Shown: positions 168 to 59,659 of the stretch, one piece after another
Layout of the letters: the number at the start of each line of letters is the position of its first letter
How positions within the stretch are numbered: the stretch's first letter is position 1
Source of the DNA: Mariniblastus fucicola
GTDB taxonomy: Bacteria; Planctomycetota; Planctomycetia; Pirellulales; Pirellulaceae
Length of the DNA: 64,000 nt
Assembly: GCF_008087665.1 (NCBI RefSeq)
Contig: NZ_CP042912.1
Coordinates: forward strand, 3,782,001 to 3,846,000
Direction of reading: 5' to 3'
The notes under the pieces: generated by a model
Databases searched by the model: none
The model's input: only the letters and a program-made list of their open reading frames with translations
What the model was told of the DNA's origin: nothing
Made by a program: the position numbers and the translations under genes

Positions 168-2033
168 ATGGTTTTCAACCGAAACGAAGACGGGTTTAAC
201 AACCGCTCATTTTTCTCTCTCCTGATGGCTCCCTTTCGCGCTATTCAGGACTGGCTTAAGGACGCCATTTCCGGCGACGACTCGTTCCGCTCGGATCAGG
301 GAAACGTCATCGTCAGATTCATCACGCTGCCGTTTCGGTTGCTGTGGGGATTCTTGGTCTTCATGGTTCAGGCTTGGACGACGTCCCGAAACGGGATTGC
401 GTTTTTGCGTGGGCTTCCCGCGTTCGGGATTATCGCCTTTACGCCATTCCTCTTGTGGTTGGTCAATAACTACTCGCGTCAGATCTCGGTTGGGCCGACG
501 ATTGGATATCACAAGATGCATCTTCGGAACGGAGCCGATGAATACGCTCAGCTGTTTTCGAAGAAACTGGTCGAGCTGGAACCGGAATCCAAAGAATACA
601 AGTACATGATGGCCGAAGATTACGCACGTAACGGCGATATCGGCAAAGCAACGCGGATCATGGAATTTCTGGCCGGAAGTACTGACATCACGCCAACGGC
701 ACTGGTTTCCAGCCCGGAGCCAACGGATACGGGCAATCCCCTGGATCCACCAACCACCGACGATTCGAGCGATCCAGACGTCGATGCTGCAGCAGAAAGC
801 GCGGAGCCGGAGAAGTACGCCCAGGCTCATGTCTGGCTGTCCCAACAGCTCATTCGCAAACAGCGGATGGAGGGAATGGATGAAGCGGGAAACACGAAAG
901 CCATGGCTCACCTTCGTGCGGCGATCGCTGCCGATCCAGAAAATATTCGAGCGAAAGTCAACCTGGTCGATCTATACCTGACCCGCGCCCGATCTATGGG
1001 CCCTGACTCTGGCGAATACAAAGAAGAAGAATACATCGAGAACCTGAAGCTCGCGCGTGAATCACTCGAGGCCCTGACACGGTTTCAAAACTTCAATCGT
1101 ATGGAGCAGGTTCTGGCCATGCCGCAGTTGGTTGACGTTTGCGTAAAACTTGGCGATGACGCTGCGGCAAAACGCGCTCTCAATGATGCGGCGTCGAAGG
1201 TCACCAGGATCGCGCGGCTTAATCCGGAAATTTACGAGATCTGGTTTTCGCTGGTTCAGTGTGCCGTAGCACTCAAGGACTACAAACGTGCCGATGAGTT
1301 TATCAAGACCGGATACCAGAACGTCAAGACTCAGGAAACACGACGTAAAATTATGCAGCTTTCGTCGCTGGTGTTTATTCAAAACGCGGACGATTTTAAA
1401 GACATCACGATCGAAAGAAATTTTCGGCTTAGGCTGTTTGCGCTTTGCAAGGCGATTGCAACGAACCCCAGAGACGTGAAAATTTACGATCGTTTGGAAG
1501 ACTACATTGATGTCGATGTGGATGAAGCCCAGCGAGAAGTTTGGTTGCGGAACTCGATTCTGGATTGCCCGATTCCGGGCGTGGTTCACATCCTGATCGG
1601 AACTCGTGAGCTTATTCGCGGTGATGTGGTCGCGGGTAAAACCAGCTGGGACATTGCACAGCACCAATTCGGGACGACCGAGTTCGTGATCCATCGTCTG
1701 CTTTCGATCGCGATTCGCAAGGAACCGAAGTACGGCGAAGGCGATTTGCTCAATACGGCATTACTGTTGTTCCCGGACCAGTACATGCTGTACGAAACCC
1801 GGGGTGCGATCAAAAAAGGCAGAGGTGAATTCACGGAGGCTATCAAGGACTTTGAATTCGTCATTGATAAAGTTCCGGATTTGATCACCGTTCAAAAACA
1901 CCTTGCGGACTGCTACGAAGCCATTGGCAATGCAGAGAAAGCGTCGTTCCATGAGAGTCGTGTCGAAGAATTGCTCGATCAGGTCGACCAGAAACAGCGT
2001 GACCTGTACGAACGTGAACTGAACAAACTGTAG
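168..2033 (+). CDS. Membrane-anchored TPR-repeat protein
   Basis: A 621-residue protein when started at ATG 168; an in-frame TTG lies at 156. Residues 1-50 are amphipathic. Two hydrophobic stretches follow, at about 53-70 (FRLLWGFLVFMVQAW) and 83-100 (FGIIAFTPFLLWLV), consistent with membrane anchoring. The rest is alpha-helical with TPR-like units near residues 140-170, 245-275, and a clear C-terminal block at about 545-600 (YETRGAIKKGRGEFTEAIKDF, then QKHLADCYEAIGNAEKA). Residues 185-225 form an acidic, Pro/Thr/Asp-rich linker. TPR proteins usually scaffold complexes. No catalytic motif is visible and the specific partner is unknown. Confidence 0.85.
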   Translation: MVFNRNEDGFNNRSFFSLLMAPFRAIQDWLKDAISGDDSFRSDQGNVIVRFITLPFRLLWGFLVFMVQAWTTSRNGIAFLRGLPAFGIIAFTPFLLWLVNNYSRQISVGPTIGYHKMHLRNGADEYAQLFSKKLVELEPESKEYKYMMAEDYARNGDIGKATRIMEFLAGSTDITPTALVSSPEPTDTGNPLDPPTTDDSSDPDVDAAAESAEPEKYAQAHVWLSQQLIRKQRMEGMDEAGNTKAMAHLRAAIAADPENIRAKVNLVDLYLTRARSMGPDSGEYKEEEYIENLKLARESLEALTRFQNFNRMEQVLAMPQLVDVCVKLGDDAAAKRALNDAASKVTRIARLNPEIYEIWFSLVQCAVALKDYKRADEFIKTGYQNVKTQETRRKIMQLSSLVFIQNADDFKDITIERNFRLRLFALCKAIATNPRDVKIYDRLEDYIDVDVDEAQREVWLRNSILDCPIPGVVHILIGTRELIRGDVVAGKTSWDIAQHQFGTTEFVIHRLLSIAIRKEPKYGEGDLLNTALLLFPDQYMLYETRGAIKKGRGEFTEAIKDFEFVIDKVPDLITVQKHLADCYEAIGNAEKASFHESRVEELLDQVDQKQRDLYERELNKL

Positions 2034-2193
2034 ATCGCGTTTGTTCGCTTACCGTCCAACTGCTGCCCGCCAGTACGAACTGCAAAGCTTCACCTTCGTG
2101 ATATCCCAGAGTGAAGAAGCAAGTCGGCACGTACCGACGACGCCAAGCACTTCTTGCGAAGTTGATACGTGCTTTCTCAATCTGGATTCTCGG

Positions 2194-2511
2194 CTACGCG
2201 TCGGCGAGCTTGACCAAAATGTCATCGCCGTCAACTTTGACTTCGTGAGAACCGGTGTTCTGCGTTGCCGGCATGCACAAGGCTTTCCCACAGCGGACAT
2301 CGAATTTGGCGCCGTGCCGAGGGCAGGCAATTGCAAACCCTTCGAACTCGCCATCACTAAGTGTGCCGCCGTCATGCGTGCACACGTCATCAAGACAAAA
2401 GTAATCGTCGCCGACCTGAAACAGGATCACCAGCTGATCGTCGACTTCGACCAGCAGTTTGTCGCCCGAGCTAAGTTCTGATCGGGTTGCTGCTTTGATA
2501 AATTCGCTCAT
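2194..2511 (-). CDS. Rieske-type [2Fe-2S] ferredoxin
   Basis: A 105-residue, single-domain Rieske protein. The cluster ligands are clear: CTH (residues 41-43) and CPRHGAKFD about 16 residues later, the C-x-H...C-x2-H pattern that binds a 2Fe-2S cluster with two Cys and two His. Size and lack of a signal peptide match soluble Rieske ferredoxins of the nitrite reductase small-subunit / dioxygenase ferredoxin group. These carry electrons to an oxygenase or act near Fe-S assembly. No oxygenase or suf gene adjoins it here, so the electron partner is unknown. It is transcribed away from the TPR gene and sits 27 bases downstream of the kinase gene, so the two may form an operon. Confidence 0.9.
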   Translation of the reverse strand: MSEFIKAATRSELSSGDKLLVEVDDQLVILFQVGDDYFCLDDVCTHDGGTLSDGEFEGFAIACPRHGAKFDVRCGKALCMPATQNTGSHEVKVDGDDILVKLADA

Positions 2512-2538
2512 GTTGTCATTCTTGAGAGTTTAAACTCT

Positions 2539-3294
2539 TCATGCGTCCGGGTTGGGAGCGATCGGAACACGAGGTTCTTTCGCCAGAGAAAAAGAAAGCT
2601 CTTCGTACCACGTGCTGTCCGAATCAACCAGCTTCTGGATTCGTTTCCAGATTTCAACCGGAGGACCGAATCCGCTCCAGTCAACGGTCAGCACGCGAAC
2701 GCCACGGCGACGCATTTCAGATAGAAGCTTTTGATAGTTACCGTAAAGTTGCTGCAAATAATCCAGTGGCACGCCTTCTTCTTCGCTGCGACCGCGGGAA
2801 TGCATTCGATCGTAGCATTCTTCTGGTGAAACATCGAGATAGACGAACACATCCGGCGGCATCACGTCACGGCTCATGTTGCGATACACATCAACGTACA
2901 AATCGTACTCTTCTGCCGTCATAAAACCACGCTCCATCGCGGTGGTTGCGAAAACAGTGTCGCCGTAGATCGGACGGTCCTGAATCACGATCGTTCCGTT
3001 GGATCCCCAAGCCTGCTCGACCGCCAGACGGTGTTGCTCATAACGCTGGCAGAGCATGAACATTTGCATGGCGAATCCGCCACCCGTGTTCTTTTCGGTC
3101 TGTAAATCGTCGTAGTATCGCTGCAGAAAGTGATTGAATTTTGGATGGTGTGTTGGTTCTTCCATCACACGCGTTGGGTGTCCGGCCGCCATCGCAGCAG
3201 AGGCGATCGCATGGCAGGCGTTGGTTTTGCCAGCACCAATGTTTGCGTCAATCGCGATGAATAGTCCATTTCTTTCGTTACCGGCAAAACCCAC
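2539..3294 (-). CDS. Deoxynucleoside kinase (dNK/dGK-dCK family)
   Basis: About 251 residues. The N-terminal P-loop is IDANIGAGKTN, followed by EEPTHHP (residues about 45-51) and the DRPIYGDTVFA motif (about 105-115), which corresponds to the DRS/ERS region of deoxynucleoside kinases. Further on, DVFVYLDVSPEECYDRM and RGRSEEE look like the LID segment with phosphate-binding arginines. The family phosphorylates deoxynucleosides with ATP in the salvage pathway; base preference cannot be read from sequence. Two GTG starts exist, at 3300 and 3294. AGGAG lies directly against the first but five bases before the second, so 3294 is preferred. The second Gly of a classical GxxGxGK loop is Ala here (ANIGAGK). 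Confidence 0.88.
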   Translation of the reverse strand: MGFAGNERNGLFIAIDANIGAGKTNACHAIASAAMAAGHPTRVMEEPTHHPKFNHFLQRYYDDLQTEKNTGGGFAMQMFMLCQRYEQHRLAVEQAWGSNGTIVIQDRPIYGDTVFATTAMERGFMTAEEYDLYVDVYRNMSRDVMPPDVFVYLDVSPEECYDRMHSRGRSEEEGVPLDYLQQLYGNYQKLLSEMRRRGVRVLTVDWSGFGPPVEIWKRIQKLVDSDSTWYEELSFSLAKEPRVPIAPNPDA

Positions 3295-3693
3295 GGTCAC
3301 TCCTCCATTTGTGTTTAGTTTGAGGACGTGAATCTATCGCCTGATGACAGCATTCGCAATCTAGCAACAATGCGTAAGCGACAGAACATCGACATTGAAG
3401 ACCTGCGATCGGCGACTTCGACAAACGTTACCCAATGCGGAAATCCTGGCGGGTGACGGGACATTTATATGACTGGGAAAGAATATTCGCCTGTTCATTC
3501 CCAGCTATATAAATTAGCTCTCGCCAAAGCGATCACCAGACGCACCAATCGCAGCGAGCCAGTCCTGTGCAGCCATTGTTAATACCCAAGCTCGTCAAAC
3601 CCCATCCTCGCATAACGGTTCAGCAGCAAGGCATGCAATATGGGTTGAAGGCGATACTACAACAGATCGCCTGAGCTTAGTCTTGGGTTCTAG
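3295..3693. other. Intergenic region without a supported gene
   Basis: About 400 bases between the kinase start and the 3' end of the next minus-strand gene. Apart from the long hairpin at 3463-3514, no convincing coding frame, RNA gene or repeat is visible. The minus-strand promoter of the kinase presumably lies at its left edge. Confidence 0.6.
3463..3514. repeat. Long imperfect hairpin (17-bp arms)
   Basis: The left arm 3463-3479 (ATTTATATGACTGGGAA) and the right arm 3498-3514 (TTCCCAGCTATATAAAT) are reverse complements except for a central two-base GA/AG swap. An 18-base loop separates them. There is no U-tract, so it is not a classical terminator. It could be a protein-binding palindrome or an intergenic repeat unit. 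Confidence 0.6.
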
Positions 3694-4251
3694 CTAGTGA
3701 AACGCTGCTGCAAGATCGGCGATCGCTTTCTTTTCCTTATCCGACACAGTTCCCGCACCGAAGAATCCACCTGCAGCTTCGGCAACATTTTCAGCGCGGT
3801 TGATCACAGACGACTTCAGCTGCGAATAGGAAGTTTCATCAAGACTGCCTTTCAGCACGCCGACGTAGCCCTTCCAGGACTCGAGCAAATCAGGCTTCGG
3901 CCGATGTGCCAGCCAGCTGCCAAGCAACTTCGATGCGGCAGAATCTTTCTCAATGCCAGCCGAAGTCGCAGCCTGGAGAATCGCCTCTTTCTCGGTGGCT
4001 TCCATCAGGTCATCACACCACGCGACTGACACCAGTGGAATCAGTGAAATCGCCGCGAGGCTTTCAGGAGTTACGCCGGCGTCGATCAGTTTGTCGAGGA
4101 CTTCATCGTTGTCGATCCCGCTAACCGCGTGCAGGGCTTCTCGAGCTTCCTTGTCCGCGAGTTCCGCTTTCAGATTCTGCAGCAGCACCTGATCGCGCTC
4201 TCCAAAAAACTTCGTTTCAAGTGCTTTGCCGCGGCCCTGAAGGTCATCCAT
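3694..4251 (-). CDS. Conserved-looking alpha-helical protein, unknown function
   Basis: A 185-residue soluble protein when started at ATG 4251; a GTG lies one codon upstream. It is helical and Ala/Lys/Glu-rich throughout, with no signal peptide and no membrane segment. Motifs such as VSVAWCDDLMEATEKEA (about 76-92) and EAAGGFFGAGTVSDKEKKA (about 160-178) look like structured helix-turn regions but match no family I can name. It is divergent from the next gene with a gap of about 280 bases. Its coding character is supported by uniform codon use and by the absence of a better frame. Confidence 0.7.
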   Translation of the reverse strand: MDDLQGRGKALETKFFGERDQVLLQNLKAELADKEAREALHAVSGIDNDEVLDKLIDAGVTPESLAAISLIPLVSVAWCDDLMEATEKEAILQAATSAGIEKDSAASKLLGSWLAHRPKPDLLESWKGYVGVLKGSLDETSYSQLKSSVINRAENVAEAAGGFFGAGTVSDKEKKAIADLAAAFH

Positions 4252-4533
4252 CACAATACCCTGATCGTATCGGTTTCAATCAAAACGACGCAAACAACCG
4301 GCCTGTCCGGGGGCCGCGTCACCAGAATGCTATTCGAGAGCGACAGCGACGGCTAGGGGTACCAAATATCACCGAAAAACCTGTCGCAAAACCGGATTTT
4401 TCATCTGTCGCAAATGAGAAAAACTAGGCTTTCGTTGGTAGCCACCGGAAGGTGTATCAATCAGAATGACCGGAAACCTCAAGGTTCGTTGAAAATCAAC
4501 CTGAACCACAGACTTGCATCGATTGCCGACACC

Positions 4534-7224
4534 ATGCTTCACACGAATCAAATCGTAAAATCCAACGCCTCTCACAAGGCAAATTTCATCGGCCGCGTGA
4601 CCGCGCTGCTGGTGTTGCTACTGGCTTCTCAGATTGCCGAAACCGCTCACGCCGACGACACGACTCAACGGCTCAGGACCTGCGTCGCACGCATGAATCA
4701 TTGGCTGGGCTCCGGCGACAAGGCCCAGACCTGGCGGATGTTGCTGGACCTCAACGTGCTTGATTCTCAAACTGCCAAGGGCGAACAAGCGGATCCGCAA
4801 ACCCTGTCACGACTGCTAGGCCGATTCGATCAAAAGAAGGCTGCGGAAGCGCATCCGGTATTCCTGGAAGTTCGAAACGCGATCTCCGCCCAGATCGACC
4901 AGATCAATCGCACTCGAACGCAGGAGTTGGCGGACCTTCAATTTGCAGCCTATCAGGCAATCTCTCAATTCGAAAAACCGTCCGTCTTGCAGTTGGAGTT
5001 CGACCGCGATTTGGCGAAGTACGAACTTCAGGTGCTAAAGAAGGTCTACCGTCGCGATCTCGACAGTCGCTCGCGAGCCATCATCTTTCACAAATTGAAG
5101 CTTGACCAAACGATCGAGTTCCTTGAAGGAATTCAGTTCGAAATGCCGCCTGAAGTCTCGGTCGGAAAAATGAAGTCGATGATTGCTGACGAACGATCAA
5201 GGCTCGAAGAGGTCGTTGACGCAATCGACGCTCTTCCAATTCAGCTTCCGGAAGAAGACAGCGATGAAGGAGATCTGGAACTGGAGCAGGACACTCCTGG
5301 CCCGGACAGCGACAGCGGTGACGATCTGAAGTCACTGGAAGCGCGAAAGGAAGCGATCGAGGAACGTATCAGCGAGTTGCGAAAGAAGTATTCCGAAGTC
5401 TTTGAGGCCGATAGGCCAAGGCTGATTCGACGTCGCGACATTGGACGCGAACTCCGCAGAATTCAACGGCGATTCGTGGTGATGGCGAAAGAGCAAACCG
5501 ATCCTGCGTTCGCTTCGGCCCGGGAAGCGATCGACATCATCGCGGACGAGTTCGAATTTGCGACCGGCGACAATATTCAGCAGGAGTACCTTGAACAGGT
5601 GACTGAACTTGCGGAACTGCTGCCAGAACTGAACGATCCCAATGCAAGGCTGTCGCACGCCCGGATTGGATCGATTTTGCTTTGGCTTGAAAACAGACAA
5701 CAACTCCAGGACTTGTGCGTCGCAATTCGTCGCCGTTACTCGAACCCGAATGCTTACGTTTCGGTTTCGTCGCGGATGCTGCAAAGCCTGACGTCTCGAT
5801 CGTCGTCGGAGAACGACCGGATCGCGGAAGACTTTCTTGGCAGATTCGCCCGGGGACTTTCAACGACCAGCACGACGGTGAATGTTGTCCCGATCGACAA
5901 CCCGGACCAGGTCCACGTCAGCATTTTGCTCAACGGAACCGCGACGACGGATACTTACGTTCGCGAAAGAATCTTTCGCATCAACTCTTCTTCATCCGGC
6001 TACCTTTCTGCCCGCCGCGACCTGTTTGCGAACCTGAACGGCCTTTGGGCAACACAAAGCAGTGTCGATGCTTCGATGTCTTCGCAGTACGGCGGCATTA
6101 GCACCAACTGCGGTTTGATTCAACGGTTGGCAGAAAAGAGCTTTACGAAAGAGCAGGGCAGAACGGACGAGGAATCCTCTCGCCGAGTCCGTGAGCGATT
6201 GCGGGACCGGTTCGAATCGGAAACTTCTAACGCGATCGGCGACGGCGTTGGTCAGGTGGAGTCGTTTGCGAAACAGGCCAGAGACATCGCTGCTTTCCTG
6301 CCACAAATTTTCCTGCGTTCGTTCTCGAATCGTGTGGAAGTCGTTGCCAAGAAGGATGCTCGCATCGCAATCAGTGCTCCTGCCAATCCGACTTTTCAAA
6401 CGGCTGGCTCCGACGTACAGATCAAGCTCCACGATTCGTTGCCGAGCATTTATCTGGATCCGATTTTTGCCGGCAAGACGTTCACGCAATCCGAGCTTGA
6501 GGCCGAAGTGAAATCCTTTGTCGGCGACGCAGACGTTTTTGCCGCTGCGAAGTCCGCGGCGGAAGATGCTGTCGAGGAAGACGTTGAAGAGTTCAAAATC
6601 AGTTTTCAGGACATCCGCCCGATTCAGTTCGAGTTTTCGGATAACCGCTTGGGTGTGGTGATCAATGGAAGTCGCTTCGAGCAGGGCGAAAATGCGATTC
6701 GAACCAACTTGTCGATCAAATTGGCGTTTAAGGTTGTTAGTCGAAACGGAAAACTGTTTATCAAAGCCGATGGCACGCCAGAGATCGACCTTTCGGAAGG
6801 CGAAGAACCGGATGCGGAGTCGATTGCGTTTGCCAAGATCCTGGAGAAACGAATCGCCGAAGCAGCTGAAGCTTCAGGTGGCGAAGGTTTCGAGCTTCCT
6901 TCCAACCTGCTGCCGTCCTTGCCACAGCTTTCTGGCCTTGAGTTCATCAACGCGTTGCAACTGGGACTGTTGGAGCTTCGTGACGGATGGCTGTATTTGG
7001 GTTGGAACTATCAGGGTGGCTCGGTCAACACGCCGGCCATTTGGAACGAGTATGTTGTCCAGGAATTCGACCCGCTTTACCTTCCGGATGGAGCACCGAT
7101 TCTGGAGCAGCCACAGGACGATTCCGTTTTGATCGATCCACCGCCTCCGGCCGACGACGTTTCGTCACAGACGATCATTCTCGATTCCGGCGCCGCGACA
7201 ATCGAAACGGGACTTGGACAATAG
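4534..7224 (+). CDS. Large secreted/periplasmic protein, unknown function
   Basis: An 896-residue protein. The open frame extends upstream to 4414, but ATG 4534 gives a good signal peptide (basic n-region, then VTALLVLLLASQ, with cleavage after AHA before DDT), so that start is chosen. The mature part begins with a helical region including a coiled-coil-like, acidic segment (about residues 230-290, ending SLEARKEAIEERISELRKKY). A middle beta-rich part of about 400-600 contains TSTTVNVVPIDNPDQVHVSI. The C-terminal part ends in a Pro-rich tail. It is probably an envelope protein of planctomycete-specific distribution. No enzymatic motif is seen. The dockerin-tagged gene starts 166 bases downstream on the same strand. 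Confidence 0.8.
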   Translation: MLHTNQIVKSNASHKANFIGRVTALLVLLLASQIAETAHADDTTQRLRTCVARMNHWLGSGDKAQTWRMLLDLNVLDSQTAKGEQADPQTLSRLLGRFDQKKAAEAHPVFLEVRNAISAQIDQINRTRTQELADLQFAAYQAISQFEKPSVLQLEFDRDLAKYELQVLKKVYRRDLDSRSRAIIFHKLKLDQTIEFLEGIQFEMPPEVSVGKMKSMIADERSRLEEVVDAIDALPIQLPEEDSDEGDLELEQDTPGPDSDSGDDLKSLEARKEAIEERISELRKKYSEVFEADRPRLIRRRDIGRELRRIQRRFVVMAKEQTDPAFASAREAIDIIADEFEFATGDNIQQEYLEQVTELAELLPELNDPNARLSHARIGSILLWLENRQQLQDLCVAIRRRYSNPNAYVSVSSRMLQSLTSRSSSENDRIAEDFLGRFARGLSTTSTTVNVVPIDNPDQVHVSILLNGTATTDTYVRERIFRINSSSSGYLSARRDLFANLNGLWATQSSVDASMSSQYGGISTNCGLIQRLAEKSFTKEQGRTDEESSRRVRERLRDRFESETSNAIGDGVGQVESFAKQARDIAAFLPQIFLRSFSNRVEVVAKKDARIAISAPANPTFQTAGSDVQIKLHDSLPSIYLDPIFAGKTFTQSELEAEVKSFVGDADVFAAAKSAAEDAVEEDVEEFKISFQDIRPIQFEFSDNRLGVVINGSRFEQGENAIRTNLSIKLAFKVVSRNGKLFIKADGTPEIDLSEGEEPDAESIAFAKILEKRIAEAAEASGGEGFELPSNLLPSLPQLSGLEFINALQLGLLELRDGWLYLGWNYQGGSVNTPAIWNEYVVQEFDPLYLPDGAPILEQPQDDSVLIDPPPPADDVSSQTIILDSGAATIETGLGQ

Positions 7225-45221: not shown

Positions 45222-46427
45222 ATGGCTGAATTTCGATACAAAGCACGCGACACAAGCGGCGGAATCCGCTCCGGCGTTATCGATGCGCCGAATCGGTCGA
45301 GTGCTGCTTCGCAGATTCGAAGCCGTGGTTTGATCGTGACCGGCGTCGACCCCGTTTACCAACAGTCAACGTCCAGAAAGCAATGGGATTGGACCAAGTG
45401 GTTGCCTGTTCGTTCGATCGATGTCGAGCTAAGCCTTCAACAACTTGCGATGATGGTTCGCGGCGGCATGTCTTTGTTGGGAGCTTTGGACTCGTTGCAA
45501 GTCCAGGCTCCCAGGAAGTCACTGGGGAACATTTGGAAAACCGTCGTCAACCAAATCCAAAGCGGGGACAGCCTTTCCAATGCGATGTCAAAGCACAATT
45601 GCTTTCCCGAGTTTACGATTCAGCTGATTCGAGTCGGCGAACGGACGGGTGAATTGCCTCCGGTGCTCGAAAGAGCCGTCGACACGATGCGCAACCGCAG
45701 GCGTAGCCTTCAGGAAGTATCGTCAGCCCTGATTTATCCATTGATGGTGATCTGTGTAGCGATCGGCGTGACGGTTTACATGGTGACCTATCTGATCCCG
45801 CAGCTGGAAACCTACCTACAGAGTCTCGGCAAAAACATGCCACCCATGACACAGAACCTTGTGAATATTTCGAACTGGATGCGTCAGTACTATAGTGCCG
45901 TGATCATCCTGTTTTGCGGCCTGTTGGTCGTGCTTGTCGTCGCGTATCGGTCTCAGGAGTGGAAAATGACTTTTCACAGATTCCTATTGCGAACACCCGT
46001 CGTAGGACGGCTGCTCAAGCTGAACGAAACTTCAACGTTTGCGCGTAGCTTAAGCGTTATGCTTGGTAGTGGCATTACACTGATTGACGGTTTGGGAACG
46101 GTTCAGAAACTGCTCTACAACCAGTTTACCGCCAAGACCGTTAACAATGCGCGCGACAAGATCATTCAAGGCGGCAATTTTGCGGATGCCATCGGCGAAG
46201 GCAATGCATTTTCGCCGATGTTGGAAAAGATGATTGCGGTTGGTCAGCAGTCGGGTGACCTCAAAGGCGTGCTTTCAGAAGTCGCTGACTTCCACGAAGA
46301 CCAGCTTCAATCAGCCATTCGAAAGCTGAACGCATTCCTGACTCCGGCGTTAACCATCGGCGTCGGAGCAGTTGTGGGCTACGTTTACATTGCCTTCTTT
46401 GTCGCTCTGCTGGCAGCGGGGAACTAA
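45222..46427 (+). CDS. gspF: GspF/PilC-like inner-membrane platform protein
   Basis: 401 residues. N-terminal MAEFRYKARDTSGGIRSGVI, then two T2SSF domains (about 68-190 and 270-395). LQQLAMMVRGGMSLLGALDSL and FARSLSVMLGSGITLIDGLG are the duplicated motifs, VRVGERTGELPPVL and IAVGQQSGDLKGVL the family's signature pair. Membrane helices lie at about 170-195, 222-245 and 372-398. It is the pseudopilus assembly platform. Confidence 0.95.
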   Translation: MAEFRYKARDTSGGIRSGVIDAPNRSSAASQIRSRGLIVTGVDPVYQQSTSRKQWDWTKWLPVRSIDVELSLQQLAMMVRGGMSLLGALDSLQVQAPRKSLGNIWKTVVNQIQSGDSLSNAMSKHNCFPEFTIQLIRVGERTGELPPVLERAVDTMRNRRRSLQEVSSALIYPLMVICVAIGVTVYMVTYLIPQLETYLQSLGKNMPPMTQNLVNISNWMRQYYSAVIILFCGLLVVLVVAYRSQEWKMTFHRFLLRTPVVGRLLKLNETSTFARSLSVMLGSGITLIDGLGTVQKLLYNQFTAKTVNNARDKIIQGGNFADAIGEGNAFSPMLEKMIAVGQQSGDLKGVLSEVADFHEDQLQSAIRKLNAFLTPALTIGVGAVVGYVYIAFFVALLAAGN

Positions 46428-46666
46428 AGCAGTTGCAAAGTCGTGTTTCTGGTAGCGGCCGCGACTGGCAGGCATACAATTTACGACTGAATTCGGCATC
46501 ACTAACGCCTTGGCTCCGGTCCGTTTCAAAGACGAAGTGAGGTCACACGTTCAGCGCGGCATTAAAAATGCCAAGCCTCGACAACCCACACGACCTCGCG
46601 ACGAAAAATGAACCGAACGAACGATTGCTTCAAACCTCCACCAACTGCTAGCAGGCAGCAAGCGAC

Positions 46667-47188
46667 ATGAACAGAAATCAAATCTCTCACATCGTTTTTG
46701 CTTTCATCGTATCTGCGTTTCTTGTCGATGGAACGGCTCTTCAAGCGCAGGAGAAGCAGGACCCGACCGCAGCTTCGGACGTCATCAAGGCAACGCTTTC
46801 AAAGATCCGCGACGTCGAACGCCTTGACGCATTCGTCGAGCAAAATAATCAATTAAAGGCTGAGAATGCGACACTGAAGAAGAACATTGCGGATATTCAG
46901 AAACAATTGGCAAAACTCACCCGGGATCTGGCTGATCAAACCGTAAAGCTGCGCCGGCAATTGCTTCAGATGCCGATATTTCAAGTGCAGTCCAAGGTGA
47001 TCGCCAACGGCAATAGCATGGCGATTCTCAAATCCAAGGACACAATCATTCGTATCCGCACGAACACTGAGATGTCAGTTCCAGTCGCGGACGGGGTATG
47101 GATCTTGATGGAAGTCAAGAAAATATCTAAAGATATGATCGAACTGAACTTCCCGGAACTGGGTCGTACGGTCTATCTTTACGATTAA
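46667..47188 (+). CDS. Exported coiled-coil protein of the secretion operon
   Basis: 173 residues. Signal peptide (SHIVFAFIVSAFLVDGTALQA). Coiled coil at about 55-105 (EQNNQLKAENATLKKNIADI), then a compact beta domain (about 108-173, ending LGRTVYLYD). It lies between gspF and the secretin, where PilP or GspC would be expected. The small beta domain may serve that linking role; this is inferred from position, not homology. Confidence 0.72.
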   Translation: MNRNQISHIVFAFIVSAFLVDGTALQAQEKQDPTAASDVIKATLSKIRDVERLDAFVEQNNQLKAENATLKKNIADIQKQLAKLTRDLADQTVKLRRQLLQMPIFQVQSKVIANGNSMAILKSKDTIIRIRTNTEMSVPVADGVWILMEVKKISKDMIELNFPELGRTVYLYD

Positions 47189-47259
47189 AGCCCCTCATTT
47201 GAACAAGTCTGATTGCGAACTCACCTGCCACGGCACGGTGTCGGTCGCGCGGGACAATT

Positions 47260-49350
47260 ATGACACGGATGTCACGTTACCCAATGGCGGCCGGTATTTA
47301 TCTGGTCATCTCCAGCATGTTTACTTTGGCAGCACCTTGCAGCTATGCGGCTGTCGCTGCGCCTCAGGATAATGCTTCGCCAACTCCCAATGCACCCACG
47401 CCGATCAAACAAAAATCGGACAAGTCGAGCGCTGTCGAAGCAACGGGCATTCCGATTCTGGATCCGACTGATCTCCAGCCGTTGATAGCTCCGGGCGATC
47501 CGGTGCTCCAACCAGGCTACGCTGATTTTCTTCCGCCAGAGACAAACATTGAACTGGTTGACTTTCGCGACCAGGAACTTGGCGACGCGATGCGTTTGTT
47601 TTCAGAACAGAGCGGCATCAACATCGTTCCTTCGACGCAAGCGAACGAGATGAAGATCAATTTGTTTCTCCGCAACGTTCGCCCAATGGACGTGCTGGAG
47701 AACCTGACCAAGACTCACGATTTGTACTTTCGTGTTGACGAAAAATCCGGCGTCATTCGAATCTTTACCACGAAAGAATACGAACAGAACCTTGCAAGTT
47801 TCCGAGAGGAGCAGACCAAGGTATTCACGTTGCTATATCCGAACCCTGTCGACGCCGCGGTTGCAATTCAAAGCCTGTTTGGAGATCGCGTCGAACTGAA
47901 TTTCGGCGTTGGCGACCAGGATTCGATTCTGGACATCATTTATCGGCTCAATCGATTCGACCTTGTCGACAGTCGCAGCCTCGGACTCGGTTCGTATCAA
48001 GGCGACTATGCCTATGGCGGACGATCGTTCAGTCGTCTGGACGGGCTGGGCGGATTCACTTCGAATCAATCCAACAAGAGCAGCAGTAACAACCGTGCCA
48101 GCAACGAATCCGAACCGCTTTCCGATCTTTCTTCGGAACAGATCCAGCAGCTGATCGAGGCACTGAACGAACGCACACAGCGACGTCCCTCTGGATCAAA
48201 TGACGGAAACGATCCCATTTCGCGACTGCTGAAAGAACGTCAGGCGACGATCTATGTGACCGTCGTAAGACGCAACAATCAGGTCGTGGTTCGCACCGGT
48301 GATGACGCGACGATGAAGCAAATCGAACAGCTGATTCAAAATCTGGACGTGCCCACACCCTTGGTTCTATTGGAAGTAAAAGTCATGTCGGTATTGCTTG
48401 ACGACGACTTCCGCAGCGTCTTCGACTATCAGTTTTCCAACGGCAGTTCCGTCGCGGGCGGTTTCACGACAGGTGACATCCTTCCGCCGCCTTCCGATTT
48501 AGCCGTTGGCGACGACAAACGACTTGAATCGATGACTCCCGGTGGAAGCTTGCTCAACCAGGGCGATTTTACGTTTCAGTTCGTGAACAACAGCTTCCGG
48601 GCTCGCATGCAACTGCTCGAAGACGACAATCGCGTCACGATCCTCAACACTCCGTTGCTTTTAACAGCCAACAATGAAGTCAGTCGGATCTTCATCGGCG
48701 ACACCATTCCATTTACCGTCGGGTTTAATTCTCCCCAAGTCATTTCTGGCGGCAACAACAACACGACAATCGCAGGCACGCCAATCACGGAACTGCGTGA
48801 CGTCGGGCAATCTTTATTAATCACTCCCAGCATCAATGCTGACCGAACGGTCACGTTGCGGATTGTTCAGGAGAACGCCAGACGCGTCATCAACGGTGGA
48901 CGAATCCCGATTCTTAGCACGACTGGTGTGATCACGAACCAGGAAGTCGACACAGTAAATCGCAGCACAGTCAGCGGAACGGTTGTCGCCAAAGACGGAT
49001 TGGCGGTTGCTCTCGGAGGATTGATCGAAGACGAAGTTTCTGACAGTCGCAGCCAGGTTCCCGGCATCGGGAAGCTTCCGGTGCTGGGCTTCTTTTTTCG
49101 CAAGCAGACTACGGGACGATTGCGACGCGAGCTAATTGTGATGGTTCGCCCTTACGTCTTTAATACGCCAGCTGAATCGGCTTCGATCAGTCAGGACTTA
49201 CTGCAACAGCTTAGCGTTCACCCGTCCGCCATGACTGGTCAGTCGTCACTACATACATTTGGCCCTCATGAGGCGGCTCAGGTTCAACTGGACGAATGCG
49301 GTTTGCACAGTTCGTTTCGATTCCATAACGTTACGCCAAGGAACTATTGA
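47260..49350 (+). CDS. gspD: GspD/PilQ-type secretin
   Basis: 696 residues. Signal peptide (AAGIYLVISSMFTLAAPCSYA). N0/STN-like domain at about 85-165 (NIELVDFRDQELGDAMRLF). N1-type repeat (TKVFTLLYPNPVDAAVAIQ). A Ser/Asn-rich linker (about 265-305), then a second N-type repeat with VVVRTGDDATMKQIEQLIQN. Secretin beta-barrel at about 370-650, with VPGIGKLPVLGFFFRKQ, the secretin signature, and RRELIVMVRPYVF. It forms the outer-membrane gate of the system. The C-terminal 90 bases overlap the upstream open frame of the next gene. Confidence 0.94.
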   Translation: MTRMSRYPMAAGIYLVISSMFTLAAPCSYAAVAAPQDNASPTPNAPTPIKQKSDKSSAVEATGIPILDPTDLQPLIAPGDPVLQPGYADFLPPETNIELVDFRDQELGDAMRLFSEQSGINIVPSTQANEMKINLFLRNVRPMDVLENLTKTHDLYFRVDEKSGVIRIFTTKEYEQNLASFREEQTKVFTLLYPNPVDAAVAIQSLFGDRVELNFGVGDQDSILDIIYRLNRFDLVDSRSLGLGSYQGDYAYGGRSFSRLDGLGGFTSNQSNKSSSNNRASNESEPLSDLSSEQIQQLIEALNERTQRRPSGSNDGNDPISRLLKERQATIYVTVVRRNNQVVVRTGDDATMKQIEQLIQNLDVPTPLVLLEVKVMSVLLDDDFRSVFDYQFSNGSSVAGGFTTGDILPPPSDLAVGDDKRLESMTPGGSLLNQGDFTFQFVNNSFRARMQLLEDDNRVTILNTPLLLTANNEVSRIFIGDTIPFTVGFNSPQVISGGNNNTTIAGTPITELRDVGQSLLITPSINADRTVTLRIVQENARRVINGGRIPILSTTGVITNQEVDTVNRSTVSGTVVAKDGLAVALGGLIEDEVSDSRSQVPGIGKLPVLGFFFRKQTTGRLRRELIVMVRPYVFNTPAESASISQDLLQQLSVHPSAMTGQSSLHTFGPHEAAQVQLDECGLHSSFRFHNVTPRNY

Positions 49351-51976: not shown

Positions 51977-52888
<912 letters not shown>

Positions 52889-53262: not shown

Positions 53263-53559
53263 ATGCTGATGGCCATTCTTTATCGCGACGACATGGTTCT
53301 CGCTGCTGCCTACGCTTGCGACCAGCACGCGTATGGCAACGAGTATTGGAGTGACGTTCATTCGGTCGCGCTTCCTCCGGGAGCGTTTGAGTTCGATATC
53401 GATGGCGTCCATGAAACGGCCTACGTTTCAGTCGCGAATTTGCAACTGAAGGAACGGTTGCTGAAGGCTTCGATCGACGACTCCATTGATCTCGTAGAAC
53501 TAACTCAGGATTTGGAAGACTCGCTCAAGCCAGCCTATCTGCCGAAACGCGCTGCGTAG
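53263..53559 (+). CDS. Small protein upstream of the radical SAM operon
   Basis: 98 residues. Strong ribosome binding site (GGAGGAG, with AGGAG five bases before ATG). Soluble, with alpha/beta-like composition: LYRDDMVLAAAYACDQHAYG at the N-terminus, then AFEFDIDGVHETAYVSVANL and a helical acidic end (VELTQDLEDSLKPAY). Six Tyr and one Cys. It precedes the first radical SAM gene by 57 bases on the same strand. No family recognised. It could be a partner protein or substrate of the operon; this is inference from context. Confidence 0.72.
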   Translation: MLMAILYRDDMVLAAAYACDQHAYGNEYWSDVHSVALPPGAFEFDIDGVHETAYVSVANLQLKERLLKASIDDSIDLVELTQDLEDSLKPAYLPKRAA

Positions 53560-53616
53560 TTGCCGCGACGACAATTCGATTTTGACAGCCATTCTCTCGA
53601 AAGGAATCGAGACCCT

Positions 53617-55335
53617 ATGGACAATGTAGCTTCGCAGACTTCCCCGGTCGTTCCGCTAGTACAGATCGGCTCGCCGCAGCAAAAACCGCCGTCGCCTGCA
53701 CCGGTTCAGTCGAAACCGCCCGGCGATCCTCCTGCCAATTTCGCTGACTCCATTCCTATCGACATTTCGATGGAGCAGAAGCACGCGATCGAGAAAAGGA
53801 ACAAGGTCGTTCTGGAGAGCGAACTCTGGGAAAAGAAACTCTCGCTCACGCCGCGACCGTATCTGGCCCACGTGCAGTTCAGCAACTTTTGCAACATGTC
53901 GTGCATCATGTGCTGGAACGGAGCCAATCCGCGAACGAAAAAACTGACTCCGGAACTGGTCGAGAAACTGGCCACCGAACTCGGACCTGAACTCTCAGTT
54001 ATCGAACCGTACAGCGGCAGCGAACCTCTCGCACTCACCTGGAAAGAAACGCTACGGATCGCCAAACAGTATGGAGTGCTGCTGTTGATGACGACGAACG
54101 CCCAGTTTCTAACCGAGGCGCGGTTCCACGAACTGAAAGAGTTCACCGAAACGCTGTACCTTTCGATCGACTCTCACATCCCATACGTCTACGAGAAAAT
54201 TCGACTGCGGGCCAAGACGGACGATGTGTTCCGAAACATCGGACCCGCGATCAAACTGGCCAAAGAGCATGGTCTCGAATGCACCGTGAATATCGTGTTG
54301 ATGACCTACAACGCGGCTTTCATCGCTGATTCAGCCGCCTGGTTCAACGATCTTGGCATCGAATCGGTGAATGTGATTCAGATGATGGACGTGAATCACC
54401 AAAGCCATTACTACGACGCGCTGGCACATTGCTCGCCGGAGTACGTGAACCACGTCAAGGAGCAAACGATTCAGGTTTGTCGTGATCGAAAGATGCGTTT
54501 GATGTGGAACGTTGGTTACACGCAGACGTTTGATTTCCGCGAAGACGGCGTGCCCACGAATCAGCGTAAAGTGATGAACGATCACTGGAGTTGGCGGATG
54601 CGATACATGCATCCTGGCTTCTGTCGACAGGCCTACAACAGGGTGCGGATCGAAGTCGACGGAAACGTGACCCCGTGCTGCTACGCGACAGAGGATCAAC
54701 TGAAGCTTGGCAACCTGGGCGACGAAAACTTCTACTATGAAGTCTGGAACGGCGTCCAGGCTCAGGATTTGCGACGAGGCATGTACACCGGAGACGTGCC
54801 GAGCCTGTGCGTGAACTGCAACGTCCGCACGGTCCCCGATCCGAGGCCCAACATGCCATTTGTCGAACACGTTGAAACGGATCCGAAGTGGAAACGCTTC
54901 TTCCGCAAGGCGGTCGTTCGCGACGTTTCGATGAATGCGACCGGGCCAGATCACGCGATCCGACTGGAACAGGCCCCGTTGATGCAGTTGGAGACTCCGT
55001 ATAAATCCCGCAAACTGATTGTGGCGTTGGCTGCTGGCGGAGAGACAGGCCACGTCGTGACGGTGAAAGTTCGAGCGAAAATCAGGGACGGTGTTGCCCG
55101 TTTTGTGTTCCCGAAAAAAGCATGGGCGCAGCTTCGCACCAATGTTGGTTATTGGTGGGCGGCGTGGCAGCAATCGGACGATGGAAATTCGATCATTCGC
55201 GTCGACAGGATGCCTTGCGTGATTCGCCACGAGTCAATTCCGCGACTCGAGGGCAGCAAGCTGGGCTATGACGATGAAGGGCATCACGCGTTGGTCAACC
55301 TGGGCGCGGACAAAGCTCAAAGGTTGGGTTCCTGA
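53617..55335 (+). CDS. Radical SAM/SPASM enzyme 1
   Basis: 572 residues from ATG 53617 (AAGGAAT upstream). A Pro/Gln-rich head of about 45 residues precedes a helix and the radical SAM core: Cys92, Cys96 and Cys99 in FCNMSCIMCWNG bind the 4Fe-4S cluster. YSGSEPL replaces the usual GGEP motif. A SPASM-like auxiliary cluster domain follows (about 345-415: GFCRQAYNRVRIEVDGNVTP, then CCYA and SLCVNCNV). After residue 450 comes a domain of about 115 residues shared with enzyme 2 (GGE..., TN.G.W.A.WQ, LGY.DEG). SPASM enzymes usually modify peptides or proteins, some act on sugars. Its stop overlaps the sulfotransferase ATG by one base. Confidence 0.92.
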   Translation: MDNVASQTSPVVPLVQIGSPQQKPPSPAPVQSKPPGDPPANFADSIPIDISMEQKHAIEKRNKVVLESELWEKKLSLTPRPYLAHVQFSNFCNMSCIMCWNGANPRTKKLTPELVEKLATELGPELSVIEPYSGSEPLALTWKETLRIAKQYGVLLLMTTNAQFLTEARFHELKEFTETLYLSIDSHIPYVYEKIRLRAKTDDVFRNIGPAIKLAKEHGLECTVNIVLMTYNAAFIADSAAWFNDLGIESVNVIQMMDVNHQSHYYDALAHCSPEYVNHVKEQTIQVCRDRKMRLMWNVGYTQTFDFREDGVPTNQRKVMNDHWSWRMRYMHPGFCRQAYNRVRIEVDGNVTPCCYATEDQLKLGNLGDENFYYEVWNGVQAQDLRRGMYTGDVPSLCVNCNVRTVPDPRPNMPFVEHVETDPKWKRFFRKAVVRDVSMNATGPDHAIRLEQAPLMQLETPYKSRKLIVALAAGGETGHVVTVKVRAKIRDGVARFVFPKKAWAQLRTNVGYWWAAWQQSDDGNSIIRVDRMPCVIRHESIPRLEGSKLGYDDEGHHALVNLGADKAQRLGS

Positions 55336-56819
55336 TGTCTGCTACAACCTCCACGTCGCGAAACCGAATCGGAAACTGGCTGCTGAAGCTGAAGGGAAAC
55401 GGTCGCGCGATCGACAAAGCCAAATGGTTGATCGACAAAGGCAATCGAGACGAAGCTCTGCAGTTTCTGGATCATTCCGCCGAAGTCTTTGCTGGTTGCA
55501 GCAAACTCAAATCGGAGGCCGCCAACTTTTTGTTTCGGCTTGGTGAATTCGAGGCTGCCGTGGAATGGCTGCGTCGAGGTGGAATCTCGAACATGGACGA
55601 AGCCACGGTTTTTCGCTGGAGCCGAAAGCTCGAACGAATCGGCGACTTGCAGTTGGCTATCGAACTTTTGCATTTGCACGTCGAAAACAACGACCATCCA
55701 CCGGAACACGATCCTTCAGAGGCACACTTTCGACTGGCGAGACTGTATCGAATTCTGGGCGATGTCGACAGAAACATCGAACACGTTTCGCAGTGTTTGG
55801 AAACCGGAAACTATCCGAACGTGCTGTCGATGATATGTTCGCTGCGAAGCGATCGGGAAAAAAGTTTGCTGCTGGATCGCGTTGAAAATTTCAAACGCGT
55901 TGCCGAGCTTCCCGGGCACTACGCGATACGAATCAATTTTGCGATCTCGGACATCTACAAGCACAACGGCAACTATGAGCAATCGGCGATCCATCTTGGG
56001 AAAGCCCGTGACGAGTTTGAATGGAAGGGTCAGAAACTCACCGAAGGCAAACCGATCAAGCCTAGCTTCCTCATCATCGGAACGATGAAAAGCGGGACCA
56101 CGGGCTTCTATCACACGCTTTGCCAACACCCTCACGTGTACGAATCGGTACGAAAAGAGGCTCGCTTTTTCGGCAACTTGGAGGCTTCCAAAGACTGGTA
56201 CTTCGCGCATTTCCCGCGGCTTCCCGAGGGGCAATCGGGGATCACGGGCGAAGCCACGCCGAACTATTACACGTTAGATATCCACGAGCAAATTCAACAT
56301 ACGTTGCCCGACGCAAAACTGATTTGCCTGATGCGTGATCCGGCAACACGCGCGATCTCACAGTACTACCACGGTCTGCGTCACGGCGCGATCAAGCGGC
56401 CGATTGAGAAGTTCTTTAGCGAGAATGTTTTTGAAGAGCTCTCCGGAAAATCAGATGCCGAGTTGGAAACGATCGCCTATCAGGTCGGAGCAGGCAACCT
56501 GTCGTTCAATACGTCTCTGGTGTTCGGGCTCTACGTGCACTACTTGAGAAAATGGTTTCGCAAGTTCGACCCGAATCGAATCCTGTTGTTGACGCTTGAA
56601 GAGTTCAGCTCAAACCAGAATGCAACGATCACCAAAGCCTGCGATTTCCTTGGGCTTGATCGCCCCGAACCGCTGGAGCTAACGAAACCGCACAAAGGCA
56701 TCTACGATGCGGACGACGAAGCCGTGCAAAGGCTGTTGCCGCGATTGCAAGAGTTTTACGAACGGCCCAATCGGCTGCTGTTCGAGGAATTTGGAATTCA
56801 GTTCGACACAAATCACTAA
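55335..56819 (+). CDS. TPR-sulfotransferase
   Basis: 494 residues. Residues 1-235 are TPR-like helical repeats (RGNRDEAL-type and LFRLGEFEAAVEWLRRG, IYKHNGNYEQSAIHLGKA). The sulfotransferase domain follows: 5'-PSB loop FLIIGTMKSGTTGFYHTL (245-262), GEATPNYY with the likely catalytic Glu306, and the 3'-phosphate motif LMRDPATRAISQYYH (332-346). It would transfer sulfate from PAPS to a sugar, peptide tyrosine or other hydroxyl; the closest look is to heparan-sulfate/TPST-like enzymes. Both ends overlap the radical SAM genes by one base (TGATG and TAATG). Confidence 0.93.
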   Translation: MSATTSTSRNRIGNWLLKLKGNGRAIDKAKWLIDKGNRDEALQFLDHSAEVFAGCSKLKSEAANFLFRLGEFEAAVEWLRRGGISNMDEATVFRWSRKLERIGDLQLAIELLHLHVENNDHPPEHDPSEAHFRLARLYRILGDVDRNIEHVSQCLETGNYPNVLSMICSLRSDREKSLLLDRVENFKRVAELPGHYAIRINFAISDIYKHNGNYEQSAIHLGKARDEFEWKGQKLTEGKPIKPSFLIIGTMKSGTTGFYHTLCQHPHVYESVRKEARFFGNLEASKDWYFAHFPRLPEGQSGITGEATPNYYTLDIHEQIQHTLPDAKLICLMRDPATRAISQYYHGLRHGAIKRPIEKFFSENVFEELSGKSDAELETIAYQVGAGNLSFNTSLVFGLYVHYLRKWFRKFDPNRILLLTLEEFSSNQNATITKACDFLGLDRPEPLELTKPHKGIYDADDEAVQRLLPRLQEFYERPNRLLFEEFGIQFDTNH

Positions 56820-58453
56820 TGGAAACTGACTTTGTCAGAGCGATTATGCACGACTCAAAAACAACCAGCCGTATCGAACTGCCGCTATTCACGACTGAAC
56901 AGAAACGTGACGTCGAGAAACTAAATCGGGAAATCCTCGAAATTGAACTTAACGAAAATCGCTACGAGTTTGCGTCGCGGCCTCACGAGGCGCACATCCA
57001 GTTCAGCAACTTTTGCAACATGTCATGTGTCATGTGCTGGAATGGAAACAATCCAAAAACACAAAAGCTGACCGAAGAGCTGGTCGCCAAAGTTGCTGAC
57101 CAACTGGGGCCTCACCTGTCGCTGATCCAGCCCTACGACGGTAGTGAACCGTTGATCCTTACCTGGGAAGAAACAAGAGATCTGGCCCGGAAGTACGGCG
57201 TTCAGCTGAAAATCACGACCAATGTTCAATTCCTTGACGAAGAAAAATTCAACGAACTGAAGGACATCACGCAGACACTGTGTCTTTCGATTGACACGCA
57301 CGTTCCGGAAATCTTTGAAAAGATTCGATTGCGTTCGAACTCGGGAAAGGTATTCAAGAACTTCGCGGAAACCGCCCAGCGATGTCGCGAAGCGAATCTG
57401 GAGTGCACGGTCAATGTGGTTTTGATGATGGAGAACCTGCCATTCATGCCCGACACGCTGAGGTATTTTGCAGAGATGGGTTACGACGATGTCAATCTGA
57501 TGCAAATGATCGACATTAACAGCGACAGTAACTTTCACGATCCGCTGGCTCATTTTTCAGACGAGTTTCTGGAGTGGGTCAAGCAGGACTGCATTGCGGC
57601 GTGCAAGGAATCCAAAATCCGAATGCTGTGGAATGTTGGCCAGATGGAGATCTTTGACTATCGCGAGAATCCGACGCCACTCGATCCACGTAGAAAAGAA
57701 GAGAACCATTTCGACTGGCGCATGCGACTGCACTTTCCGGGCTTCTGCCGCAACGTGATGAACAAGATCCGCATTGAGGCCGACGGAAACGTTGCACCTT
57801 GCTGTTACGCGACGCAAGGACAGCTTTCGCTCGGCAACCTGAATCAGCAAAATTTTGAGGAGATCTGGAACGGCACCGAAGCCAAAGATTTGCGTCGGGC
57901 AATGTACTGCAGAGACCTGCCGTCGCTGTGTACCGAATGTCGCATCAACGAGCCTATGGCTCCCCGAGACAACCTGCCGTTTGTGGCCAAGGTGATGCAG
58001 GAACAGCCGGAGTTTTTCGCCGGAAGTTGCGAATCAGATCTGAAAATCATCTCACCAGAGCACGTTGCTCGCATGGCAGAGGCCCCAATCTTTCGTTTCG
58101 AAAGCCCGTCGCGAACCCCGGAAATTCTGGTAGCGGTCGCGCGTGGCGGCGAAGCGGATTGCGTGGATACGTTTCGAACGAGAGCGAGCTTTGACGAAAA
58201 CGGGATTGGCTCGTTCGCGATTCCGGCTGAGCTGTTTGCACGGCTGAAAACGAATCACGGTCAATGGATTGCTGTTTGGCAAGCCGGTGAGAACGGAACG
58301 GCATTGCATCGCTGTGAGAAGTTACAGTGCTTTATCTCGCACCAATCAATGCAGCGTCTCGACGGCAGTACGTTGGGCTACACCGACGAGGGATACCAAC
58401 CGCTTTATGAATTGGGGGCCGCGAAACCCGTCGGGTTTGCAAAAGCTTCGTAG
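56819..58453 (+). CDS. Radical SAM/SPASM enzyme 2
   Basis: 544 residues. A paralog of enzyme 1, about half identical over the core. Cys66, Cys70 and Cys73 in FCNMSCVMCWNGN bind the cluster; PYDGSEPLILTWEET follows. SPASM region at about 320-385 (GFCRNVMNKIRIEADGNVAP, CCYA, SLCTECRIN). C-terminal domain at about 420-535 shared with enzyme 1, with FRFESP, ARGGEA, LKTNHGQWIAVWQ and LGYTDEGY. It lacks the Pro-rich head of enzyme 1. The start is set by the TAATG overlap with the sulfotransferase. Confidence 0.92.
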   Translation: METDFVRAIMHDSKTTSRIELPLFTTEQKRDVEKLNREILEIELNENRYEFASRPHEAHIQFSNFCNMSCVMCWNGNNPKTQKLTEELVAKVADQLGPHLSLIQPYDGSEPLILTWEETRDLARKYGVQLKITTNVQFLDEEKFNELKDITQTLCLSIDTHVPEIFEKIRLRSNSGKVFKNFAETAQRCREANLECTVNVVLMMENLPFMPDTLRYFAEMGYDDVNLMQMIDINSDSNFHDPLAHFSDEFLEWVKQDCIAACKESKIRMLWNVGQMEIFDYRENPTPLDPRRKEENHFDWRMRLHFPGFCRNVMNKIRIEADGNVAPCCYATQGQLSLGNLNQQNFEEIWNGTEAKDLRRAMYCRDLPSLCTECRINEPMAPRDNLPFVAKVMQEQPEFFAGSCESDLKIISPEHVARMAEAPIFRFESPSRTPEILVAVARGGEADCVDTFRTRASFDENGIGSFAIPAELFARLKTNHGQWIAVWQAGENGTALHRCEKLQCFISHQSMQRLDGSTLGYTDEGYQPLYELGAAKPVGFAKAS

Positions 58454-58510
58454 CGATTCAGTGAAACCTGAACCAATCGATTGATTGTGACCTTTGACGG
58501 CAAAGCGAAT

Positions 58511-59659
<1,149 letters not shown>

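Follow-up and report, generated by a model that had tools for sequence, protein, structure and literature searches.

A compact unit of three genes was identified in a window of 64,000 nucleotides from Mariniblastus fucicola (the whole stretch analysed, positions 3782001-3846000 of a 6.57 Mb single-contig genome), and its existence as a gene unit is near certain. On the plus strand, it consists of a gene coding for a radical S-adenosylmethionine (SAM) enzyme of 572 residues (enzyme 1, 53617..55335), a gene coding for a sulfotransferase of 494 residues with tetratricopeptide repeats (TPRs; 55335..56819) and a gene coding for a second radical SAM enzyme of 544 residues (enzyme 2, 56819..58453), a paralog of the first with the same domains and the cluster cysteines kept. 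The reading that we favour, to which we give slightly less than an even chance, is that the three products form an accessory cassette modifying one carbohydrate-type acceptor by radical oxidation (or epimerisation) and by O-sulfation.

The open reading frame (ORF) calls bore out the three genes, their order and their strand as proposed in an earlier note made from the letters of this DNA; the assignments were completed by Pfam for all three products, by a structural model for enzyme 1 and by an alignment with Protein Data Bank (PDB) chains for the middle protein. The one-base overlaps reported in that note were read directly at both junctions: CCTGATGTC at 55331-55339 contains the TGATG stop/start of enzyme 1 and the sulfotransferase (55333..55337, plus strand) and ACTAATGGA at 56815-56823 contains the TAATG of the sulfotransferase and enzyme 2 (56817..56821, plus strand). 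The outer proteins are indeed paralogous (47% identity), and the Pfam matches of the middle protein agree with the TPRs and sulfotransferase domain ascribed to it. That the trio is a single tightly packed unit is supported by the overlaps and by its absence as a block at the corresponding empty site of a close relative, G016. The three genes are presumably co-transcribed. Between 52900 and 58700, no sigma-70 promoter-like site was found when 2.7 were expected by chance, and terminator-like sites were not above chance (6 versus 7.2).

The empty site was highlighted by comparison of the DNA around hemB (delta-aminolevulinic acid dehydratase; 58511..59521, minus strand), the convergent right-hand neighbour of the trio, which was recognised by the neighbour scan and a hemB search. 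Of 36 genomes searched, 33 yielded this gene, the present genome counted; for 19 of the 32 besides this one, the DNA around it, in some cases cut off by a contig end, was searched with the window genes from 40 kb on. Only one of the 19 stretches (L113, from G016) shared the neighbourhood, its hemB being 92% identical. In G016, the order is a xylose-isomerase-like gene, a gene for a 98-residue protein, hemB and a DUF3754 gene, and all three operon genes are missing: DNA homology ends at window position 53558 and restarts at 58530, and about 150 unrelated bases replace the accessory block (53560..58529). On the left flank of the window, the xylose-isomerase-like TIM barrel gene found by the neighbour scan (51977..52852, minus strand) is 87% identical to its G016 counterpart. 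No match to enzyme 1 was detected in the G016 genome, which is 84% complete.

The 98-residue gene (53263..53559, plus strand) had been presented as a small partner of the operon. Its position, the ribosome-site letters TGGAGGAG preceding its ATG and the 57 bases (53560-53616) separating it from the ATG of enzyme 1 were as described, but the partner role did not survive: the gene lies outside the unit and is a resident of the site, kept beside hemB in G016 (69% identity over 98/98 residues) where the trio is absent. It was rejected on this ground both as a substrate and as a partner. The protein gave no family match over cut-off in Pfam or NCBIfam. A search of 392 genomes of the phylum found it in this genome only; the sole genome of the genus in that set is this one, and the G016 copy was found separately. 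The block may use the transcript of this resident gene.

In both outer proteins, Radical_SAM and SPASM were the only Pfam domains above cut-off. Enzyme 1 is composed of an unstructured N-terminus, a barrel with the CX3CX2C motif, a twitch-type auxiliary-cluster domain and a C-terminal beta-sandwich (about residues 442-551), and its sole other match in its own genome is the neighbouring enzyme 2. The family to which both belong comprises 9 proteins from 8 loci in 7 genomes. Eight cysteines outside the C-terminal domain are invariant in the nine aligned rows: C92, C96 and C99 in the SAM-cluster motif, then C336, C354, C355, C398 and C401, which, with the equally invariant C534 of the beta-sandwich, are enough for one cluster. 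When the family profile was compared with the PDB, the best match was BtrN (6.5e-8), the butirosin 2-deoxy-scyllo-inosamine dehydrogenase (4m7s/4m7t), and in the alignment C336, C354, C398 and C401 of enzyme 1 are each paired with a BtrN cysteine that we take to be a cluster ligand. Judged from the sequence, these four residues should provide a complete set of ligands for one auxiliary cluster. Like the window enzymes, BtrN combines a radical SAM barrel and a twitch domain; the match is weak and local, and the BtrN chains (269-270 residues) leave no room for the C-terminal beta-sandwich. To our knowledge, the butirosin cluster contains no sulfotransferase.

BtrN is described as a twitch enzyme oxidising a cyclitol, with an auxiliary cluster held by four cysteines; in MoaA, one iron of the cluster is left open for the substrate, and SPASM is defined by two auxiliary clusters (PMC9012708). 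The eight invariant cysteines argue for one auxiliary cluster and not two. A SPASM domain with two clusters was therefore rejected, so that the term SPASM in the earlier note is valid as a Pfam name and not as a description of the domain, and the outer enzymes fit the twitch type with a single auxiliary cluster, as in BtrN. No B12-binding domain was found by Pfam in either enzyme.

The model of enzyme 1, built from the nine-row alignment, has a mean predicted local distance difference test (pLDDT) value of 79.1. Residues 1-46 are below 50 and are followed by one helix (52-71) before the barrel; no winged helix precedes the barrel and no family of the type of the RiPP (ribosomally synthesised and post-translationally modified peptide) recognition element (RRE) was matched by Pfam, so that no RRE was found in enzyme 1. 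Modelled alone, the 110 C-terminal residues fold as a beta-sandwich (pLDDT 89.9) without any Foldseek match against the PDB at E 0.001. The near misses included immunoglobulin/fibronectin III-like chains, with template modelling scores up to about 0.55, and TEAD2 chains, which came first by E-value.

The middle protein matched Sulfotransfer_1 (PF00685; 1.7e-18, 67.4 bits for a cut-off of 22), together with TPRs and Sulfotransfer_3. At E 0.001, it matched 15 PDB chains: 13 heparan-sulfate sulfotransferases, among them 1t8t (2e-16, the best) and 1nst (1.8e-12), and in addition a sulfotransferase of unspecified type and a TPR protein; no tyrosylprotein sulfotransferase was among the 15. In the alignment with 3-OST-3, the 3'-phosphoadenosine 5'-phosphosulfate (PAPS) loop IIGTMKSGTTGFY and the 3'-phosphate motif RDPATRAISQYY are intact, and the Glu of GEATPNYY, presumably the catalytic residue, is aligned as well. 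The protein is a predicted PAPS-dependent sulfotransferase of PF00685. It resembles the heparan sulfate 3-O- and N-sulfotransferases in domain sequence, PAPS motifs and aligned Glu; unlike them, it is bacterial, carries an N-terminal TPR domain and stands in no visible heparan context. Its nearest homologs are at most 38% identical, and 14 of 294 genomes, this one included, contain a match at E 1e-20. A second sulfotransferase family, PF13469, has served other authors to indicate the production of sulfated exopolysaccharides, and most planctomycete orders in their study had no such gene (PMC9723792).

A second member of the radical SAM family is operon-linked to a sulfotransferase gene. At locus L039/L061 of genome G075, a radical SAM gene, a class-III aminotransferase gene (like glutamate-1-semialdehyde aminomutase) and an Stf0 sulfotransferase gene (PF09037, 4.2e-37) lie on one strand, separated by about 24 and 31 bases according to the gene caller. 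This sulfotransferase is the only PF13469 match of G075, which has no PF00685 match, and the crude chance that it falls within 3 kb of either of the two family genes of that genome is about 0.0015. With a profile of the window sulfotransferase type, searched against the ORFs of those loci from L038 to L103 that exceed 3.9 kb, L039/L061 was the only other radical SAM locus detected (0.0057). A sulfotransferase gene is thus found nearby at 2 of the 8 family loci, and at 2 of the 3 loci of the clade containing the window enzymes. At the other family locus of G075 (L038/L063), the radical SAM gene overlaps a gene resembling dTDP-glucose 4,6-dehydratase / GalE; on the other side lie a weak GH76-like gene and, two genes off, a glycosyltransferase gene.

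In the mechanism proposed for the trio, the acceptor would be a glycan of the cell surface, a glycolipid or else a precursor such as a sugar or cyclitol. In each twitch enzyme, the 5'-deoxyadenosyl radical would remove a hydrogen atom from one of the acceptor's C-H bonds and an electron would pass to the four-cysteine auxiliary cluster, giving a two-electron alcohol oxidation as in BtrN; epimerisation is the less likely alternative. The presence of two diverged radical SAM enzymes would correspond to two positions of the acceptor, the sulfotransferase would transfer sulfate from PAPS to a hydroxyl on the same acceptor, and the TPRs and beta-sandwiches may serve to bind the acceptor or the partner proteins. 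A common acceptor for the radical SAM pair and the sulfotransferase is likely. That it is a sugar is suggested by the kinship of the sulfotransferase and by the neighbours of the two sister loci, and oxidation as the type of reaction by the four-cysteine cluster. The idea of the earlier note that radical chemistry and sulfation meet on one acceptor remains the best reading, favoured by the joint absence of the block in G016 and by the operon link of a second family member to a different sulfotransferase. A more specific version is doubtful: a transferable oxidise-and-sulfate cassette, in which two twitch dehydrogenases or epimerases with divided labour, each using its unclassified C-terminal beta-sandwich to hold the carbohydrate or the partner, would act with the TPR-sulfotransferase to produce keto or inverted sulfated sugars on a bacterial surface glycan.

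Several observations weigh against the carbohydrate reading. When the whole model of enzyme 1 was submitted to Foldseek, the top matches were the peptide maturases 5why and 6efn (SkfB), then SuiB, as well as anSME, a sulfatase maturase; viperin came after them, and MoaA, DesII and BlsE lower. SkfB is a twitch enzyme that acts on a peptide (PMC6231123). These matches would suit a radical SAM pair whose target is a peptide or protein from another locus, crosslinked or oxidised by the pair and sulfated, for example on a tyrosine, by the sulfotransferase; we consider this unlikely. The Foldseek ranking of the model is generic for the superfamily. The sactipeptide maturases CteB and SkfB, and anSME, rank highest against the whole model; two auxiliary clusters are bound by CteB and anSME, and an N-terminal RRE is present in CteB and SkfB, and neither feature was found here. 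Function is hard to predict in this subfamily (PMC6231123). In addition, the adjoining small gene is resident and present without the trio, nothing beyond Radical_SAM and SPASM exceeded the Pfam cut-offs, and tyrosylprotein sulfotransferase is missing from the PDB matches. None of the 25 NCBIfam models listed per enzyme, many of which describe peptide maturases, reached its cut-off (36 and 47 matched in all). The best one was NF033640 (N_Twi_rSAM), with 77.1 and 89.3 bits for a cut-off of 170, its best stretch aligning the twitch part of the enzymes with the start of the model. The earlier lean towards peptides found no support, in view of the twitch rather than SPASM type, the lack of an RRE, the failure to find a precursor, the carbohydrate-type sulfotransferase and the sugar-enzyme neighbours at the sister loci. 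At other loci, no shared small gene was present among gene calls of 50-60 residues and up, a search that leaves shorter peptides and distant genes outside.

Other points on the same side concern the neighbourhoods. No glycan cluster surrounds the trio among the 10 scanned neighbours. At 5 of the 8 family loci (L058, L059, L060, L062 and L064), those neighbours that were scanned matched no sugar- or sulfate-transfer family; FG-GAP, thiolase, amino-acid permease, methionine sulfoxide reductase, WD40, DUF6807, class-V aminotransferase and ThiF genes were found there, L060 being a contig of 5.6 kb. The genomes of L058 and L059 (G449 and G450) possess sulfotransferases outside the fetched stretches, and those of L060 (G451), L041/L062 (G155) and L064 (G452) contain no PF13469 or PF00685 sulfotransferase. 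This genome gave 14 PF00685 rows and 15 PF13469 rows, and with so many sulfotransferases, one neighbouring copy alone is weak evidence. Finally, the sulfotransferases of the window and of L039/L061 belong to different families, which may reflect a shared need to sulfate the radical-modified product, or a coincidence or two separate recruitments.

These data could be accounted for by a loose association in which the sulfotransferase and the radical SAM pair have different substrates and only the transcript in common, an explanation to which we give little credence. The complete trio was found in no other genome in the searches made here, and 6 of the 8 family loci have no nearby sulfotransferase. 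The window sulfotransferase gave no tblastn match at E 0.001 in 20 radical SAM loci, and no radical SAM relative was found by phmmer with both enzymes (E 0.001, ORFs of at least 100 residues) in 11 stretches that together include 12 of the 20 other sulfotransferase matches. The earlier note named rare linkage of the genes in related genomes as an outcome that would refute it, and this was partly observed. The one-base overlaps at both junctions, the position of the sulfotransferase gene between two paralogs, the joint absence of the three genes in G016 and the recurrence of a sulfotransferase at L039 argue against a loose association.

Another possibility, which we judge improbable, is that the trio tailors a secondary metabolite or an acyl chain whose biosynthetic enzymes are encoded at other places in the genome; a role of this kind has been proposed for the swf operon, described in sponge symbionts. 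In this putative operon, a radical SAM gene is paired, as here, with a sulfotransferase-domain gene (PMC3908369), and a sulfotransferase that modifies a natural product has been described in bacteria (PMC12135136). SwfC is described as B12-binding and methyltransferase-like, and the window enzymes have no B12-binding domain by Pfam; SwfB carries a reductase domain, and a polyketide or fatty acid synthase supplies the swf acceptor (PMC3908369). No gene of the polyketide synthase or nonribosomal peptide synthetase type was present among the 10 scanned neighbours of the trio. The swf operon was the only relevant precedent found in the literature for a radical SAM and sulfotransferase pairing, so that the novelty claimed in the earlier note holds in part. 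Each component of the trio belongs to a known family; what is new is their combination, together with the C-terminal domain and the patchiness of the block. If the oxidise-and-sulfate version holds, the trio would, as far as the literature could be searched, be the earliest example of glycan sulfation coupled to oxidation by radical SAM enzymes. If the proposed reading is true, the trio would be a compact three-gene set joining C-H radical chemistry to sulfation, and a function could be assigned to a subfamily of planctomycete radical SAM enzymes in which no listed NCBIfam model reaches its cut-off. The empty site of G016 offers a natural comparison of glycans with and without the block.

The radical SAM family is rare. 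In the 392 sampled genomes of the phylum (this one included), 31 contained some match to it at 1e-15, and full-length relatives including the C-terminal region were found in only three: this genome, G075 and G155. A scan that used two short peptide patterns as its starting point and covered 84,980 species genomes gave 12 loci, of which seven have the C-terminal region (six from Planctomycetota, and L062 from an uncultured bacterium); its misses make these numbers lower bounds. The phylum, sulfotransferase and C-terminal-domain scans scored up to 3, 5 and 12 candidates per genome, respectively, so that family counts are at least those given, and the search of the class of G075 covered a single genome, G075 itself. 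In the tree, the family forms one group (100/99) in which enzymes 1 and 2, L061 and L063 make up a clade (99/97); the placement of L061 is less sure because of its long branch (1.55). Enzymes 1 and 2 are sisters (99/96) on long branches, so that the duplication is old.

Concerning the history of the block, no full-length match to enzyme 1, the only protein used in this search, was found in 59 other relatives, 27 of them same-genus drafts (71-97% complete), and weak partial matches occurred in five (best 3.4e-7). In the same-genus genome G025 (L132, 6203-6388), about 190 bases resemble the C-terminal domain, with 38% identity to enzyme 2 over 63 residues and a stop inside, and the 14 kb contig gave no match to the sulfotransferase, the 98-residue protein or the remainder of the enzymes. 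This stretch is probably what is left, in broken form, of a family member's C-terminal domain. It weakens a history of gain only; it touches the history and not the mechanism, and our odds for the readings are unchanged by it. The simplest interpretation is that the block was gained by this lineage and that the family is patchy in the genus; loss in G016, the single empty site seen, is the less likely alternative. The cassette was probably acquired horizontally. A foreign base composition was not seen (GC and third-position GC of the three genes at z -1.1 to 1.7 relative to 41 window genes), and no flanking repeats marking an insertion element were recognised, the long direct repeats being the two paralogs. 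In a plasmid collection, 2 of 72,556 records matched, with about 24% identity over 58-60%.

The profile of the C-terminal domain detected 4 of the 392 genomes, namely this genome, G075, G155 and, weakly, G287 (3.9e-4), where it again lies within a radical SAM protein. At L064 (9893-13943) and at L111 of G287 (1039-5169), the same three opposite-strand genes, class-V aminotransferase (NifS-like), ThiF-like and ferredoxin-like, adjoin a radical SAM gene that carries the beta-sandwich or a weak version of it, the L111 names and the ferredoxins being judged by eye.

In the window itself, type II secretion/pilus-type genes (T2SS F, secretin) were noted upstream at 45222-49350, with no visible connection to the trio. 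At 10 of 20 gene-called planctomycete loci (L046, L047, L049, L050, L051, L052, L053, L054, L056 and L057), chaperone genes (dnaJ, grpE, often groEL) and a gene for a small zinc-ribbon protein precede a distant radical SAM/SPASM paralog that is about 26-29% identical to enzyme 1 and has no beta-sandwich; at L052, grpE was the only chaperone gene called. Pfam identified Cpn60, DnaJ, GrpE, Zn_ribbon_8 and radical SAM/SPASM at L053, and Zn_ribbon_8 and radical SAM/SPASM at L051, and the remaining loci were judged by eye from the sequence starts. This chaperone-linked radical SAM enzyme is conserved. At L044 (4790-11141), another distant relative (599 residues) stands among genes with glycosyltransferase-like starts, as judged by eye, a hint that the wider radical SAM group acts in glycan synthesis.

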